Assembly: GCA_023248995.1 (NCBI GenBank)
Contig: JAHFDN010000019.1
Coordinates: forward strand, 1-60,007
Source of the DNA: Candidatus Rokuibacteriota bacterium
GTDB taxonomy: Bacteria > Methylomirabilota > Methylomirabilia > Rokubacteriales > CSP1-6
Direction of reading: 5' to 3'
DNA length: 60,007 nt
Shown: piece after piece, positions 11,698 through 47,540 of the stretch
Position numbering within the stretch: the stretch's first letter is position 1
Layout: each line of letters starts with the position of its first letter
Made by a program: the position numbers and the translations under genes
Notes under the pieces: model-generated
What the model was told of the DNA's origin: nothing
The model's input: only the letters and a program-made list of their open reading frames with translations
Databases searched by the model: none

Positions 11698-12194
11698 AAT
11701 TCCTCTGCATCGAGTGCGACGAGCCGATGCGGCTCGAGAAAAGCCAGGGACCGGACGAGGGCTCGCTCACCGTCACCTTCGGCTGCCCCCGGTGCGGCCG
11801 CCGCGTCGCGATGCTCACCAACCCGTTCGAAACCCAGCTGATCCGGAGCCTCGGCGTCAAGGTGGGCGGCCGCGCGGAGCCCGCGGTCCCCTTCGAGCAC
11901 CTCCGCTCGTCGCTCGCGCACCAGCGCCCGGAGGCCTTCGAAGAGGCGGAGGGCGCCGGCCAGACGGAAGGCAGCGGGCCGGGCTGCCCGTTCGCGGGGA
12001 TGATCACCGATCAGGAGGCTCTGGCCCAAGACGGCATGGCATGGAGCGCGGAGGCCCAAGCGCGCGTGGAGCGGATTCCCGCCTTCATCCGTCCCATGGC
12101 CAGGAAAGCGATCGAGCGCTACGCCCTGGGCAAGGGCTACGGCACGATCACCGAGGAGGTCATGGACGAGGCGCGCGCCGCCTTAGGCATGTAG
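11694..12194 (+). CDS. Zinc-ribbon protein with C-terminal PCP_red domain
   Basis: 166 residues. The N terminus has two cysteine pairs (FLCIECDE and FGCPRCGR), a zinc ribbon. Residues about 115-165 (WSAEAQARVERIPAFIRPMA, then RKAIERYALGKGYGTITEEV) match the PCP_red module found at the C terminus of light-independent protochlorophyllide reductase subunit B. No chlorophyll genes are present, so the module is used outside photosynthesis, as in other heterotrophs. It overlaps the cNMP-binding gene at its start and the convergent glutaredoxin-like gene by 12 bases at its end. Confidence 0.8.
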   Translation: MKFLCIECDEPMRLEKSQGPDEGSLTVTFGCPRCGRRVAMLTNPFETQLIRSLGVKVGGRAEPAVPFEHLRSSLAHQRPEAFEEAEGAGQTEGSGPGCPFAGMITDQEALAQDGMAWSAEAQARVERIPAFIRPMARKAIERYALGKGYGTITEEVMDEARAALGM

Positions 12195-12422
12195 GAGCGG
12201 CTCGATCGCCTCCCGGTTGGCCGCGAACCCGAAGAAGACGCGCCCGTCGATCACGACCGTCGGCACGGCGAGCCGCCCCGCCACGGTGAAGCACTCGAGC
12301 GTCGCCTCTCCGTCCCGCCCCACGTCGCGCACGTCCACCCGCATGCCGCGCGCCTGAAAGAATACCAGCGCGGCTTCGCCGTCGGCGTTCCCCTCCATGG
12401 TGTAGAGCAGCACCTTCTTCAC
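12183..12422 (-). CDS. Glutaredoxin-like protein lacking the CxxC motif
   Basis: 79 residues from a GTG at 12422 that overlaps the upstream stop (GTGA). The thioredoxin-fold pattern is clear: KKVLLYTMEGNADGEAALVFF, VDVRDVGRDGEA and VAGRLAVPTVVIDGRVFFGF with the cis-proline VPT. The active-site position reads GNADGE instead of CPYC, so ordinary dithiol exchange is not possible. It may bind a ligand or partner instead. Confidence 0.75.
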   Translation of the reverse strand: MKKVLLYTMEGNADGEAALVFFQARGMRVDVRDVGRDGEATLECFTVAGRLAVPTVVIDGRVFFGFAANREAIEPLLHA

Positions 12423-12610
12423 GGGCGGGCCTTGGGGTGGCGGCCGTACTGGCGGTGACACCGAGGGCAGCGGAGCCAGGCGGACCGGACGCGCTGGACG
12501 ATCCACCCGCAGTGAGGACACAACTGAAGCGCCCGGCGCGCCACCTGCCACCCGCCGAGAGCGGCCAGGAGGACGGCCGCCAGAACCAGGAACCCCCACA
12601 CCCACTCCAT
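12419..12610 (-). CDS. Membrane-anchored zinc-ribbon mini-protein
   Basis: 63 residues from the ATG at 12610: an N-terminal transmembrane helix (WVWGFLVLAAVLLAALGGW), then a zinc ribbon CPHC...CPRC and a basic tail. No family name. The GTGA overlap with the glutaredoxin-like gene suggests co-translation and perhaps joint function at the membrane. Confidence 0.65.
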   Translation of the reverse strand: MEWVWGFLVLAAVLLAALGGWQVARRALQLCPHCGWIVQRVRSAWLRCPRCHRQYGRHPKARP

Positions 12611-13651: not shown

Positions 13652-13993
13652 TTAGGGAAGGAACTCGTTCGGCCGGTCGAAGATAGCCAGGAGGACGCAC
13701 CCGTCAGGGCTCCAGGCGTGGTGGACAGAGCCGGGCCGGCGCCAGACGAAGTTCCCCGCCGTGCAGGTTCCCTCCTCGTCCGCGAGCGCGCCCTCGAGGA
13801 CGAAGCTCTGCTCCACGCCGACGTGCCGGTGGTCGGGGAGCCGGGCGCCGGGGGCCAGGCGGAGGAGCACCGTCTGACGCCCCGAAGCCTCTGCATAGAG
13901 GGTCTTCGTCTCGACCCCTGGGAAGCGCGTCGGTTCCCAGGCGATCCGAGACACGTCGAGGTACACGGACCGCGCGGTCTCCTTCAGGATCAT
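13652..13993 (-). CDS. Cupin-domain protein
   Basis: 113 residues. The cupin motif 1 reads GARLPDHRHVGVEQSFVLEG, with the metal-ligand pattern HxH...E, followed by AGNFVWRRPGSVHHAW carrying the distal histidine. It resembles the ChrR-type cupin, which senses oxidants or metals in anti-sigma factors, but no sigma-binding domain is attached. It lies 27 bases after the selenoprotein stop, with AAGGAG before its ATG, so the two probably form one operon. Confidence 0.82.
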   Translation of the reverse strand: MILKETARSVYLDVSRIAWEPTRFPGVETKTLYAEASGRQTVLLRLAPGARLPDHRHVGVEQSFVLEGALADEEGTCTAGNFVWRRPGSVHHAWSPDGCVLLAIFDRPNEFLP

Positions 13994-14020: not shown

Positions 14021-14368
14021 TCATGGCTTTCCGAGCGCCTCCCGGTAGAGCTCCTCGGTGTACCCCCGCACCAGGAGATCGCCCATGTGGAGCACCGGCA
14101 CTCGGAGGAACCCGTCGTCGTGGACGAGGTAGGACGCGATTTGCCCCTCGGTGATCGGGTTCGTCGCCGAATGGAACCGGAGCGTATCCTGGCCCACCTT
14201 GATCAGGAGGTGCCGCGCCCCCCGCGCCAGCTCCAGGGTCTGGGCGCGATCCACCGGCCGCGCCTCCACGAGGCGGCTCTCGTAGGCGATGCCGTGCCGC
14301 GAGAGAAACTCCCTCGCCTTCTCGCAGGTGGGTCAGTTTCCCCGGTTGTAGAGGATCGCCCGGACCAT
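14021..14368 (-). CDS. Selenoprotein: glutaredoxin/ArsC-like with Sec-Pro-Thr-Cys motif
   Basis: From the ATG at 14368 (GGGAG about 9 bases upstream) the frame runs 115 residues, interrupted only by a TGA at codon 12 (14333-14335). On both sides it reads as one protein: MVRAILYNRGN, then the TGA, then PTCEKAREFLSRHG, and on to LRVPVLHMGDLLVRGYTEEL, the C-terminal pattern of ArsC/Spx-like and glutaredoxin-like proteins. The TGA sits where homologues carry the first cysteine of CPTC, so it should encode selenocysteine, giving UPTC. selA, selB and tRNA-Sec are in this window and a SECIS-like hairpin follows. It is probably a thiol oxidoreductase with a selenolate nucleophile. Plain annotation would start at the GTG at 14269 and lose the active site. 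Confidence 0.85.
14300..14316 (-). promoter_or_regulatory. SECIS-like hairpin for UGA recoding
   Basis: On the minus strand CGAGGG and CTCTCG pair (6 bp, one G-U) around the loop AGTTT. The stem begins 17 bases, and the loop about 22 bases, after the UGA. Bacterial SECIS elements lie at this spacing and have a G in the first two loop positions, as here. A competing stem, GCGAGA with TCTCGC, is also possible. Folding was judged by eye. Confidence 0.6.
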
Positions 14369-14430
14369 CTTCGCTCTCCCCGTCGAGCAGGGAGATTGTA
14401 GTGGTCGAGGGCAGGTCTGTCCAGAGGGGG

Positions 14431-14564: not shown

Positions 14565-14723
14565 CTACCGCTTCCCGAGCCTCTTCCGCTTGACGTAGGA
14601 CCACAGCTTTTTTGTCATGACGGAAGGGCCGATCGGTTTCGAGCCGAAAATCGATTCGGCCGAGTCCTTGCAGCCCTTGAAACTGATGGAGTAGCCGCCA
14701 AACGCTACCTTCTTCTTCGCCAT
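14565..14723 (-). CDS. Basic mini-protein resembling half a SWIB domain
   Basis: 52 residues, from an ATG at 14723 with AGGAGAGGGC before it to a TAG at 14565. It begins MAKKKVAFGGYSISFKGCKD. The part FGSKPIGPSVMTKKLWSYVK resembles the first half of a SWIB/MDM2 domain, whose typical form is GxxxMxRxEVxKKxWEYIK. It ends basic (KRKRLGKR). SWIB-like proteins in bacteria are often small and may bind nucleic acid or chromatin proteins, but the role here is unknown. Confidence 0.65.
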   Translation of the reverse strand: MAKKKVAFGGYSISFKGCKDSAESIFGSKPIGPSVMTKKLWSYVKRKRLGKR

Positions 14724-14954: not shown

Positions 14955-14970
14955 ACGAGCGTCCTTTCAC

Positions 14971-16777
<1,807 letters not shown>

Positions 16778-42780: not shown

Positions 42781-44694
42781 TTAGGTGGCGTGGATCGTCC
42801 CGCGGAGGACGCGCCTGTCGCCGACCCGCGTCGTGATCCGCTGGCCGTCGAAGTACTCCATGAGCGGGATGGCGTACTTCCGGGAGATCCCGAGCAGCGC
42901 CTTCACGTCGGCCGGGGTCAGTTCCTTCTTCTCCTTGAGGAAGGCCACGACCTTGTCTTCGATGATTTTCAGAATGTCGGCGTGGAAGAAGAGCGACTCC
43001 TTGATCCTCACGAGACGCTTGCCGTCAAGCAGGAGTTGGAACAACTCATTTTCCTCCGATCCCCCGAGCCCGGCTTTGGCCAGCGCCTCCTCAGGGCTGG
43101 GCGGTGACGCGCCCGCGCTTCGGAAAAGCGCCTCCATCGTGTCCACCGCCGCCCGCTGAGCCGACGAGAGCCGGATCTGGTGCGCCGCGAGCCTCACCTT
43201 GTCCCGCTCGGCCTTGACGAGCCCTTCCGTCTCCAGCGCCTCCAGCATGTGGGCGAAAAAGCGCTCCTCCGCCGAGCCGGCGCGCCGTCGGAGCTCCTCG
43301 CGCGAGATGCCTGACCGGAGCGGGAACTTGACGTGGAAGGCCTCGAGCACGCGGAGGATCTGCTCCCGGAGCCGCGCCCGGGCCTCCGCGTGGACGAACC
43401 ACTCCCGGTCCACCGCGACGATCTTCCCGGCCGTCCTCAGAGCCTCGAGCAACCCCTTGAGCCGCTCGGGGGCGAAGGGCGTCCGGGCTCTCAGGTCCGC
43501 TGTCCTGAGGCCGAGCGGGCCCGCCTGGCGCAGGTGCTCCTCGAGCACCTCTTCCGGCGCCCCGCGCTCGAGAACGGCCAGATGCGCCGGGAGGGCGGGG
43601 GCCTTCCTCTTGAAGCGAGGTGGCGCAACATCTAGAAGAGTCCCCCCTCCGATGGTGATGATCGGCGAGTAGGACCGGACCACGTAGCGGTCTCCCGGGA
43701 GCGCGACGACGGGGGCCTCGAGCCTGAAGCGCGCGTAGGCCGTGTCGCCGGGTTCGAGCGCGGGCCGATCCAAGAGGAGCACGCGCGCCATGACCTCGCT
43801 CGTCCCGACGTGGAAACGGACGCGGTCCCGCGCCTTGAGCGGCCGCGGCGCGTCCCCGAGGAGCTCGAGGGTCCCGTCCACCAGGAGCGCCGGGAGAAGC
43901 GCGCCGGGAAGCCCGAGGACGTCGCCCCGCTCGATCGCGGCCCGCTCCACGCCCTGGAGGTTCACCGCGGTCCGCTGCCCCGCCACCGTCTCCGTCACGG
44001 GACGGCCGTGGCACTGAAGCCCTCTCACCTTGGCGACGGCTCCCTTCGGATAGATCTCGACGCGCTCGTCGAGCGCTAGGCGGCCGGCGGTGAGGGTGCC
44101 GGTGACGACGGTGCCGAAGCCCTTGACCGTGAAGACCCGGTCGATGGGAAGGCGCGGCGACTGGTCGGCGGCCTTGGGGGGGACTTTCTCGGCCAGCGCC
44201 CTGAGCGCGGCGCGCAATTCGTCGAGCCCCTCGCCGGTCTTGGCCGAGACGGGGACGATCGGGCAACCCTCGAGGAAGGTGCCACGGAGGAGCCGCCCCA
44301 CGTCGTCCTTGACGAGCTCCACCCACTCTTCCTCGGCCAGGTCGCGCTTGGTGAGAGCGACAAGCCCGGCCTTGATGTGGAGAAGCCGGCAGATCGCGAG
44401 GTGCTCGCGCGTCTGGGGCATCACCCCCTCGTCGGCGGCGATCACCAGGAGCACGAGGTCGATCCCGCCCACCCCGGCCAGCATGTTCTTCACGAAGCGC
44501 TCGTGGCCCGGGACGTCCACGATCTCGATCGTGAGGCCGCCGGGCTCCTCCAGGTAGGCGAAGCCCAGGTCGATCGTGATCCCCCGGGCCTTCTCCTCGG
44601 GGAGGCGGTCGGTGTCGATGCCGGTCAGCGCCTTGACGAGCGCGGTCTTGCCGTGATCGATGTGCCCCGCCGTCCCGGCCACCACATGCTTCAT
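42781..44694 (-). CDS. selB: Selenocysteine-specific elongation factor SelB
   Basis: 637 residues. GTPase domain: [17 protein letters not shown] (G1), [13 protein letters not shown] (G3), TKRDL (the NKxD-type G4). The EF-Tu-like domains II and III follow ([15 protein letters not shown]), then about 250 residues of C-terminal winged helices, ending [20 protein letters not shown], that bind the SECIS hairpin. It delivers Sec-tRNA to UGA codons. It begins 6 bases after selA. It and the selenoprotein at 14021-14368 imply active recoding in this organism. Confidence 0.97.
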
Positions 44695-44700
44695 AGTGGA

Positions 44701-46113
44701 TCAGGCTAGGCGAGAGAGCGCTTGTGCCAGGGCGGGGATGTCGGAGTTGAGGACGGTGCGGCAGTCGAGGAGCAGGCGATCGTCGGCGATCCGGCCGATG
44801 ACGGGGGGCTCACCGGCCCTGAGCGCCTGGTCGAGCTCGTGGGCGGGGCGCCCGGGCATGCCAACGCCGAGCGCCACCGTCGGAAGCTCGACGAGCGGCA
44901 GCGAACCCCCACCAACCTGGGCGCGCCCTTCCACCAGCGTCGCCCCCAGCGCGGCCTCAACCCTCGGAGAGAGCCGGCGCAGCAGGCGACGGGCGCGGCG
45001 GCGCACCGCGGCGAGAGGCTCGGTGAGCATCCGGAGCGTCGGCATCGTCTCGAGGGCGTTGCCCGCCTCGTAGGCGTACAGCGTCGCCTCGAGGGCGGCG
45101 AGCGTGAGCTTGTCGATCCGGAGCGCGCGGTTCAGCGGGTTCGTCCTGAGGCGCTCCACAAGCCCGGCCTTGCCGACCACGATCCCCGCCTGGGGGCCGC
45201 CCAGGAGCTTGTCGCCCGAGAAGGAGACAAGGTCCACGCCCGCGGCCACCACGTCCGGCACCGTGGGCTCGTAGGGGAAGCCGTAGGGGCGGAGGTCCAC
45301 GAAGCAGCCCGAGCCCAGGTCCTCCATGACCGGAATCCCGCGCGAGTGCCCGAGCTCGACGAGCTCGCGCGTCGAGACCTGGGCGGTGAAGCCCAGCACC
45401 CGGTAGTTGGACGTGTGGACCTTGAGCAGAAGCGCGGTCTCGGGGCCGATCGCGTCGGCGTAGTCCTTGAGATGGGTGCGGTTGGTCGTGCCGATCTCGC
45501 GGAGGAGCGCGCCGGAGCGCCGCATGATGTCGGGGATCCTGAACTCGCCCCCGATCTCGATCAGCTCGCCCCGGGAGACCACCACTTCCTTGCCGCGCGC
45601 CAGGCTCTCGAGGGCCAGGAGCACGGCGGCCGCGTTGTTGTTGACGACCAGCGAGGCCTCGGCGCCCGTCAGTCGGCGGAGAAGGCCGTCCACGTGGGCG
45701 TAGCGCGAGCCGCGCTCCTTCGACCGGAGATCCATTTCGAGGTTGGAGTAGGCGGCGCCGACGCGGTGGAGGCGCTCGATGGCCAGGGGAGAAAGGAGCG
45801 CGCGCCCGAGGTTCGTGTGGAGCACCACGCCCGTGGCGTTGATGACCGGCGCGAGCGAGAAGGCGCCCGCGCGCGAGAGCTCCGCCACTACCCGGCGGGC
45901 CAGCGCGTCGGGATCGGGAGGCACAACCGCGCCGGCCCGCTTCAGCCCGTCCATGAGACGGCCGCGCTCGCCCGCGAGCACTTCACGGACCGCCTGGACG
46001 ATCCGTGCCCGCGGAATGTCGGAGAGCGCGGGCTCCCCCTGGACCCGCTGGAGCAACTGGTCCACCGAGGGAAGCGACCGGAGCGCCGACTTCCGTGCCT
46101 CAGATTTGCTCAT
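44701..46113 (-). CDS. selA: L-seryl-tRNA(Sec) selenium transferase SelA
   Basis: 470 residues, a PLP fold-type I enzyme that converts Ser-tRNA(Sec) to Sec-tRNA using selenophosphate. Seen: the N-terminal tRNA-binding helices (LRSLPSVDQLLQRVQGEPAL), NATGVVLHTNLGRALLSP, VVNNNAAAVLL and the PLP lysine in SFSGDKLLGGPQAGI. It shares an operon with selB. The selenophosphate synthase gene selD is not in the window. Confidence 0.97.
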   Translation of the reverse strand: MSKSEARKSALRSLPSVDQLLQRVQGEPALSDIPRARIVQAVREVLAGERGRLMDGLKRAGAVVPPDPDALARRVVAELSRAGAFSLAPVINATGVVLHTNLGRALLSPLAIERLHRVGAAYSNLEMDLRSKERGSRYAHVDGLLRRLTGAEASLVVNNNAAAVLLALESLARGKEVVVSRGELIEIGGEFRIPDIMRRSGALLREIGTTNRTHLKDYADAIGPETALLLKVHTSNYRVLGFTAQVSTRELVELGHSRGIPVMEDLGSGCFVDLRPYGFPYEPTVPDVVAAGVDLVSFSGDKLLGGPQAGIVVGKAGLVERLRTNPLNRALRIDKLTLAALEATLYAYEAGNALETMPTLRMLTEPLAAVRRRARRLLRRLSPRVEAALGATLVEGRAQVGGGSLPLVELPTVALGVGMPGRPAHELDQALRAGEPPVIGRIADDRLLLDCRTVLNSDIPALAQALSRLA

Positions 46114-47442: not shown

Positions 47443-47540
47443 TGGCGGAAGCGTGTGGGAGTCGAACCCACCTCCAGCTTGTCTAGAGCCGGACGCCGGA
47501 TTTGAAGTCCGGGAGGCCCACCGGGATCCTAGACGCTTCC
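47443..47540 (-). tRNA. selC: tRNA-Sec (anticodon UCA)
   Basis: 98 bases including CCA, much longer than an ordinary tRNA. The acceptor GGAAGCGT pairs with ACGCTTCC (8 bp). The anticodon arm CCGGACTTCAAATCCGG carries TCA, which reads UGA. A long variable arm (CGTCCGGCTCTAGACAAGCTGGAGG region) and T arm GTGGGTTCGACTCCCAC follow, with discriminator G. These are the hallmarks of bacterial selenocysteine tRNA. It is 1.3 kb upstream of selA on the same strand. Confidence 0.95.

Follow-up and report, generated by a model that had tools for sequence, protein, structure and literature searches.

A single TGA interrupts an otherwise open minus-strand frame in the window (the whole stretch of 60,007 nucleotides that was analysed), which raises the question whether this codon ends translation or is read as selenocysteine (Sec), and what kind of protein would result. 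It was concluded, with a probability of about 0.9, that the frame 14368-14021 encodes a SelB-decoded selenoprotein of the Spx/YffB/ArsC branch, which is most likely a thiol-disulphide (or related) reductase and represents a sister family of NF041106.

The reading frame and its in-frame TGA

The gene at 14021-14368 (minus strand) corresponds to a protein of 115 aa followed by a stop codon (MVRAILYNRGN-U-PTCEKAREFL...LRVPVLHMGDLLVRGYTEELYREALGKP). As the initial annotation had claimed, the frame was interrupted solely by the TGA at codon 12, counted from the ATG at 14368, and the frame translation placed this codon (14333-14335, minus strand), the catalytic position, at the first cysteine of a CPTC-type motif. 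Cys15 (14324-14326, minus strand), the resolving cysteine of the UxxC motif, was nearly invariant across the family. The ribosome site proposed upstream was also found, a likely Shine-Dalgarno GGGGAG being recognized by sequence at 14376-14381 (minus strand), 7 nt upstream of the ATG. No other TGA read-through candidate with comparable support was seen by eye when the window was surveyed by composition and folding.

The conservation of the TGA was investigated in 95 genomes of Methylomirabilota/Rokubacteria, where 38 family members were counted from the match list. The TGA occurred at the same codon in 36 of the 38 members, three of these 36 being cut by contig ends. The TGA-bearing members came from many genera of Methylomirabilota/Rokubacteria, and identity went down to 37%. 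Since the same TGA was kept in 36 of 38 members across many genera, chance was excluded. A one-genome-per-species scan, which covered close relatives only, recovered six Rokubacteria, all six with the TGA, and one partial match from Alphaproteobacteria with cysteine in the TGA column. A nonsense mutation or an assembly error in a single genome, which would turn the gene into a pseudogene, has in its favour that single-base differences are always possible in MAG sequences; the presence of the same TGA in 36 genomes, however, makes this explanation exceedingly improbable.

The remaining two members, L026 (genome G012) and L047 (genome G084), carried cysteine instead of Sec and ran uninterrupted through the TGA position. 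Their motif was Y-D-[RK]-x-C-D-C-P-[SA]-S (CPSS and CPAS), with a cysteine aligned to Sec, a one-residue insertion and serine where the family has Cys15, and the hairpin was missing. In both proteins an additional cysteine was located two residues before the one in the Sec column (C-D-C-P), and the second active-site cysteine was lost. Both were nested among the Sec members in the tree, and selB scored above the cut-off in both genomes. Because both Cys-form genomes retained selB, a natural replacement of Sec by Cys appears to have taken place inside the family, to judge from the sequences, with the motif changing from UPTC to CDCP[SA]S. Cysteine was also found in the Sec column of all ten aligned distant YffB/ArsC-type relatives from proteobacteria.

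Standard ORF calling yielded only 82 aa from the GTG at 14269, an ORF without the catalytic residue, just as had been anticipated. If the TGA were a true stop, this listing would be the real gene and the upstream part would be untranslated. However, the upstream part, holding strand 1 and the catalytic helix, ranked with the most conserved segments of the family, coding composition was present on both sides of the TGA in the 14368-14021 frame, and the Cys forms L026 and L047 read through the position. None of the homologues started after the TGA, and in all the intact ones the strand-helix segment with LY...UP[TAS]C preceded and spanned this position. A start at the GTG was thus judged very improbable, and both this and the pseudogene explanation were rejected on the conservation of the upstream part and of the TGA and on the Cys forms.

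The family was found here only in Methylomirabilota, among the genomes searched. A tblastn search of a plasmid collection gave zero matches to the family, and the family was not found in a 398-genome sample of the phylum of L007, an Alphaproteobacteria MAG, where only distant Cys relatives scoring at most 45 bits were recovered.

The selenocysteine machinery and the SECIS-like hairpin

The initial annotation had located selA, selB and tRNA-Sec within the same 60 kb, and all three were confirmed by models. The Sec-specific elongation factor gene selB (42781-44694, minus strand) matched TIGR00475 with 380 bits and the selenocysteine synthase gene selA (44713-46083, minus strand) matched TIGR00474 with 593 bits, both above the cut-offs, and tRNA-Sec with the anticodon TCA (47443-47540, minus strand) was detected by ARAGORN and by Rfam RF01852 with 70.9 bits. 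The selD gene, for which a genome search had been suggested, was present on a different contig of the same genome (G000:C22:271492-272433) with 347 bits. The machinery of selA, selB, selD and tRNA-Sec is therefore complete in the genome. This selD itself carried one in-frame TGA and so is probably a selenoprotein too, as is known for selD from other bacteria. The idea of a hidden selenoprotein was supported by sequence comparison, since none of the three observations named beforehand as speaking against it (homologues lacking Cys in the TGA column, homologues beginning after the TGA, or a genome lacking selD) was made.

A SECIS-like hairpin, CGAGGGA-GTT-TCTCTCG, was located at 14300-14316 (minus strand), 16 nt 3' of the UGA, with G at the first loop position. 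The pattern G[CT]GAG[AG]GAG-NNN-CTCTCG was found 15-16 nt after the UGA in 33 of the 33 TGA loci examined, of which only the four fetched later check it independently, because it was written with most of the loci already seen and drawn from them. When the hairpin region of the window was folded alone, it was no better than shuffled sequences (z = 0.10) and its single-sequence MFE favoured another pairing. The earlier claim of a hairpin at the expected place therefore held in the cross-species comparison, on which the case rests, and was weak when the window sequence was folded on its own.

The comparison was extended to related families. The NF041106 paralogues had a stem in the same columns formed by other letters, for example CGCAAGA-GTT-TCTTGCG, and the stem letters differed again in a third, Spx-like UxxC family, GGAGGGC-GGT-GCTCTCC. 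Pairs were counted in 34 distinct sequences from the three UxxC families. It was found that 96.2% of the stem cells were paired, the best slid register giving at most 74.8%, and that 30 cells showed double changes versus a shuffled mean of 8.8, with none of 500 shuffles as high, although related sequences may exceed shuffles even when no structure exists, and these same sequences had served to pick the stem. Joint changes between the families were seen at pair 22-34 (A-U to C-G) and at pair 23-33 (G-C to A-U). The hairpin lies inside a conserved coding stretch, so its conservation is partly that of the protein. Its Arg codon was AGR in every TGA member, AGR making up only 11% of the Arg codons in eight genes of the window, and its Phe codon TTT represented 8% of the Phe codons in the same genes; the hairpin codons thus run counter to local usage.

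Fold, family and proposed function

With cysteine placed at codon 12, the protein passed the Pfam Glutaredoxin model (PF00462) with 29.9 bits versus a cut-off of 22.9, over residues 5-48 only, and just missed Pfam ArsC (22.9 versus 24 bits). It scored 56.8 bits on NF041106 (ArsC_rel_Se_1), where the cut-off is 85 and other members of the family reached 54.8, 53.5 and 33.3 bits. The true NF041106 paralogues, which several genomes carry alongside a gene of the UPTC family, gave 129.6 and 138.6 bits. In the tree the NF041106 proteins formed a separate, fully supported group from the UPTC family, the deep branching order being unsure because the tree has few columns and long branches. Due to the scores below the cut-off, the paralogues in the same genomes and the separate tree group, the UPTC family was taken as a sister of NF041106 rather than a part of it, and it apparently lacks a model of its own while belonging to a kind already known, the ArsC-type UxxC selenoproteins.

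An AlphaFold2 model obtained from the family alignment had a pLDDT of 95.2 and the glutaredoxin-type order E-H-E-H-E-E-H-E-E-H. The top folds among solved structures were Spx, YffB and ArsC-related proteins with moderate TM-scores of about 0.5-0.6, and the top match of the family profile against the PDB was YffB 1rw1 with 41.5 bits. Sequence, tree and predicted model together assign the protein to the Spx/YffB/ArsC-glutaredoxin superfamily. The description "glutaredoxin/ArsC-like" given in the initial annotation was thus correct and could be refined, the closest folds and full-length profiles being Spx/YffB/ArsC and not classical glutaredoxin. The positions invariant in 33 members include Y7, Sec/Cys12, P13, R19, L22, P38, K57, H83, D85, G86, P91, V92, R101, G102 and Y108, and P91 likely occupies the cis-Pro place of thioredoxin folds, beside the active site.

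We propose that SelB would recognise the hairpin 16 nt past the UGA and deliver Sec-tRNA(Sec), as in established bacterial Sec biology. The product is predicted to be a one-domain thioredoxin-fold protein with a UPTC active site. Judging from the fold and the motif, Sec12, located where helix 1 begins, would attack an oxidised substrate; the intermediate would be resolved by Cys15 with formation of a selenylsulphide, and the enzyme would be regenerated by a cellular thiol.

Two other functions were weighed against that of a reductase. The selenoprotein might have no enzymatic role and act instead as a regulator like Spx, which senses redox state as a partner of RNA polymerase; the Spx structures were the best fold matches, the CxxC switch of Spx is established to lie at the same place, and the Spx/MgsR model TIGR01617 was matched with 36.1 bits. 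However, this score is far under the cut-off of 75 bits, the family profile fits YffB and glutaredoxins equally well or better, and Sec is usually reserved for catalysis, and a regulator is therefore unlikely. A role as an arsenate reductase would agree with the ArsC superfamily fold, with the Pfam ArsC score slightly below its cut-off, and with the existence of UxxS arsenate reductases as selenoproteins, which are tabulated in PMC13188914. On the other hand, TIGR00014 arsC (cut-off 106 bits) gave no match at E up to 1, the motif is UxxC and not UxxS, and genes of an arsenic operon were not seen in the inspected, partly annotated neighbourhoods, so that arsenate reduction was regarded as an unlikely function. 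A thiol-disulphide (or related) reductase was retained as the most likely assignment.

The companion gene had been described as a cupin, and a ChrR-type cupin was indeed found as the next gene on the same strand and a probable operon partner (13652-13993, minus strand; Pfam Cupin_7, 75.5 bits). The cupin directly followed the selenoprotein gene in nine genomes, the surroundings in G017 being otherwise different. The two proteins might form a functional pair in which a Sec-based redox relay would read out or repair a cupin sensor that binds metal, or else feed electrons to a cupin enzyme, a proposal that we hold to be doubtful. The adjacency in nine genomes would agree with such a pair, as would the Cys form of G084, which was at the same locus with no adjacent cupin. 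Family members occurred in other genomes without an adjacent cupin, and no common partner was seen for members outside the cupin group in the neighbourhoods inspected, which were partly annotated. To our knowledge, no such use of selenocysteine, as a redox relay to a cupin, has been described.

Other features were recorded around the locus. The upstream neighbour is a small conserved ORF of 52 aa (14565-14723, minus strand), with 71-92% identity at the same locus in close relatives. An ordinary TPP riboswitch (14964-15077, plus strand) is situated immediately 5' of thiC, the gene that flanks this locus in divergent orientation. A short glutaredoxin-like protein (12183-12425, minus strand) scored 19.6 bits on Pfam Glutaredoxin, below the cut-off; it had YTMEGNADGE in the place of CxxC and no catalytic cysteine there, and its sequence was 88-91% conserved near the same locus in close relatives.

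Related UxxC proteins and known systems

A third selenoprotein of the ArsC superfamily, with the motif YQKPT-U-TSC and its own hairpin, was observed at L051 (genome G001) and L081 (genome G033). L051 passed the Spx/MgsR model TIGR01617 with 83.3 versus 75.05 bits, and Sec forms above the cut-off of this model were not found in the available parts of the selenoprotein reviews. Together with NF041106 and the Spx-like group, the UPTC family brings the UxxC branches of the ArsC superfamily in this single phylum to three. As two genomes have swapped to Cys while keeping selB, these branches are suited to asking what advantage Sec has over Cys.

The UPTC family adds a conserved selenoprotein family to Methylomirabilota, one whose start and active site would be lost in standard gene calling. 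Selenoproteins have reportedly been predicted in groundwater MAGs by Deng et al. in 2026 (Cell Rep), and the UPTC family may be among those candidates. The UPTC family was not named in the available parts of the selenoprotein reviews or of the deep-Sep paper. In PMC13188914, with reference to another paper, one Methylomirabilota MAG is reported to have 63 predicted selenoprotein genes, the largest such set in bacteria. NF041106 (ArsC_rel_Se_1) corresponds to the UxxC "Arsenate reductase-like protein" listed in PMC9312934 and PMC13188914. The gene therefore appears less singular than first thought, since ArsC-type UxxC selenoproteins have already been described.

Among the known systems, NF041106 shares with the UPTC family the superfamily, the length, the UxxC position and the distance between the hairpin and the UGA. 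It differs in an identity of only about 21-31%, in forming a separate clade and in co-occurring as a paralogue. NF041106 has W.YHR..U, where the UPTC family has LYN..UP[TAS]C; the VGF of YffB and NF041106 is replaced by VRG[YFW]. The YffB/ArsC-family reductase (1rw1; NCBIfam PRK10853), the best PDB profile match, has its Cys in the Sec column; however, it uses Cys and not Sec, its CDTM-type motif is devoid of a second Cys, and no SECIS is expected. Spx (PDB 3gfk and 1z3e) provides the best fold matches and has its CxxC switch at the same place, but contains Cys and not Sec, and the UPTC protein is sub-threshold on the Spx models. The UxxC glutaredoxin of the Clostridium oremlandii type (PF00462) likewise has UxxC at the N-terminus of helix 1, and the Pfam cut-off is passed by the UPTC protein; that glutaredoxin is about 80 aa long, whereas the UPTC protein has 115 aa and an extra middle segment typical of ArsC/Spx.
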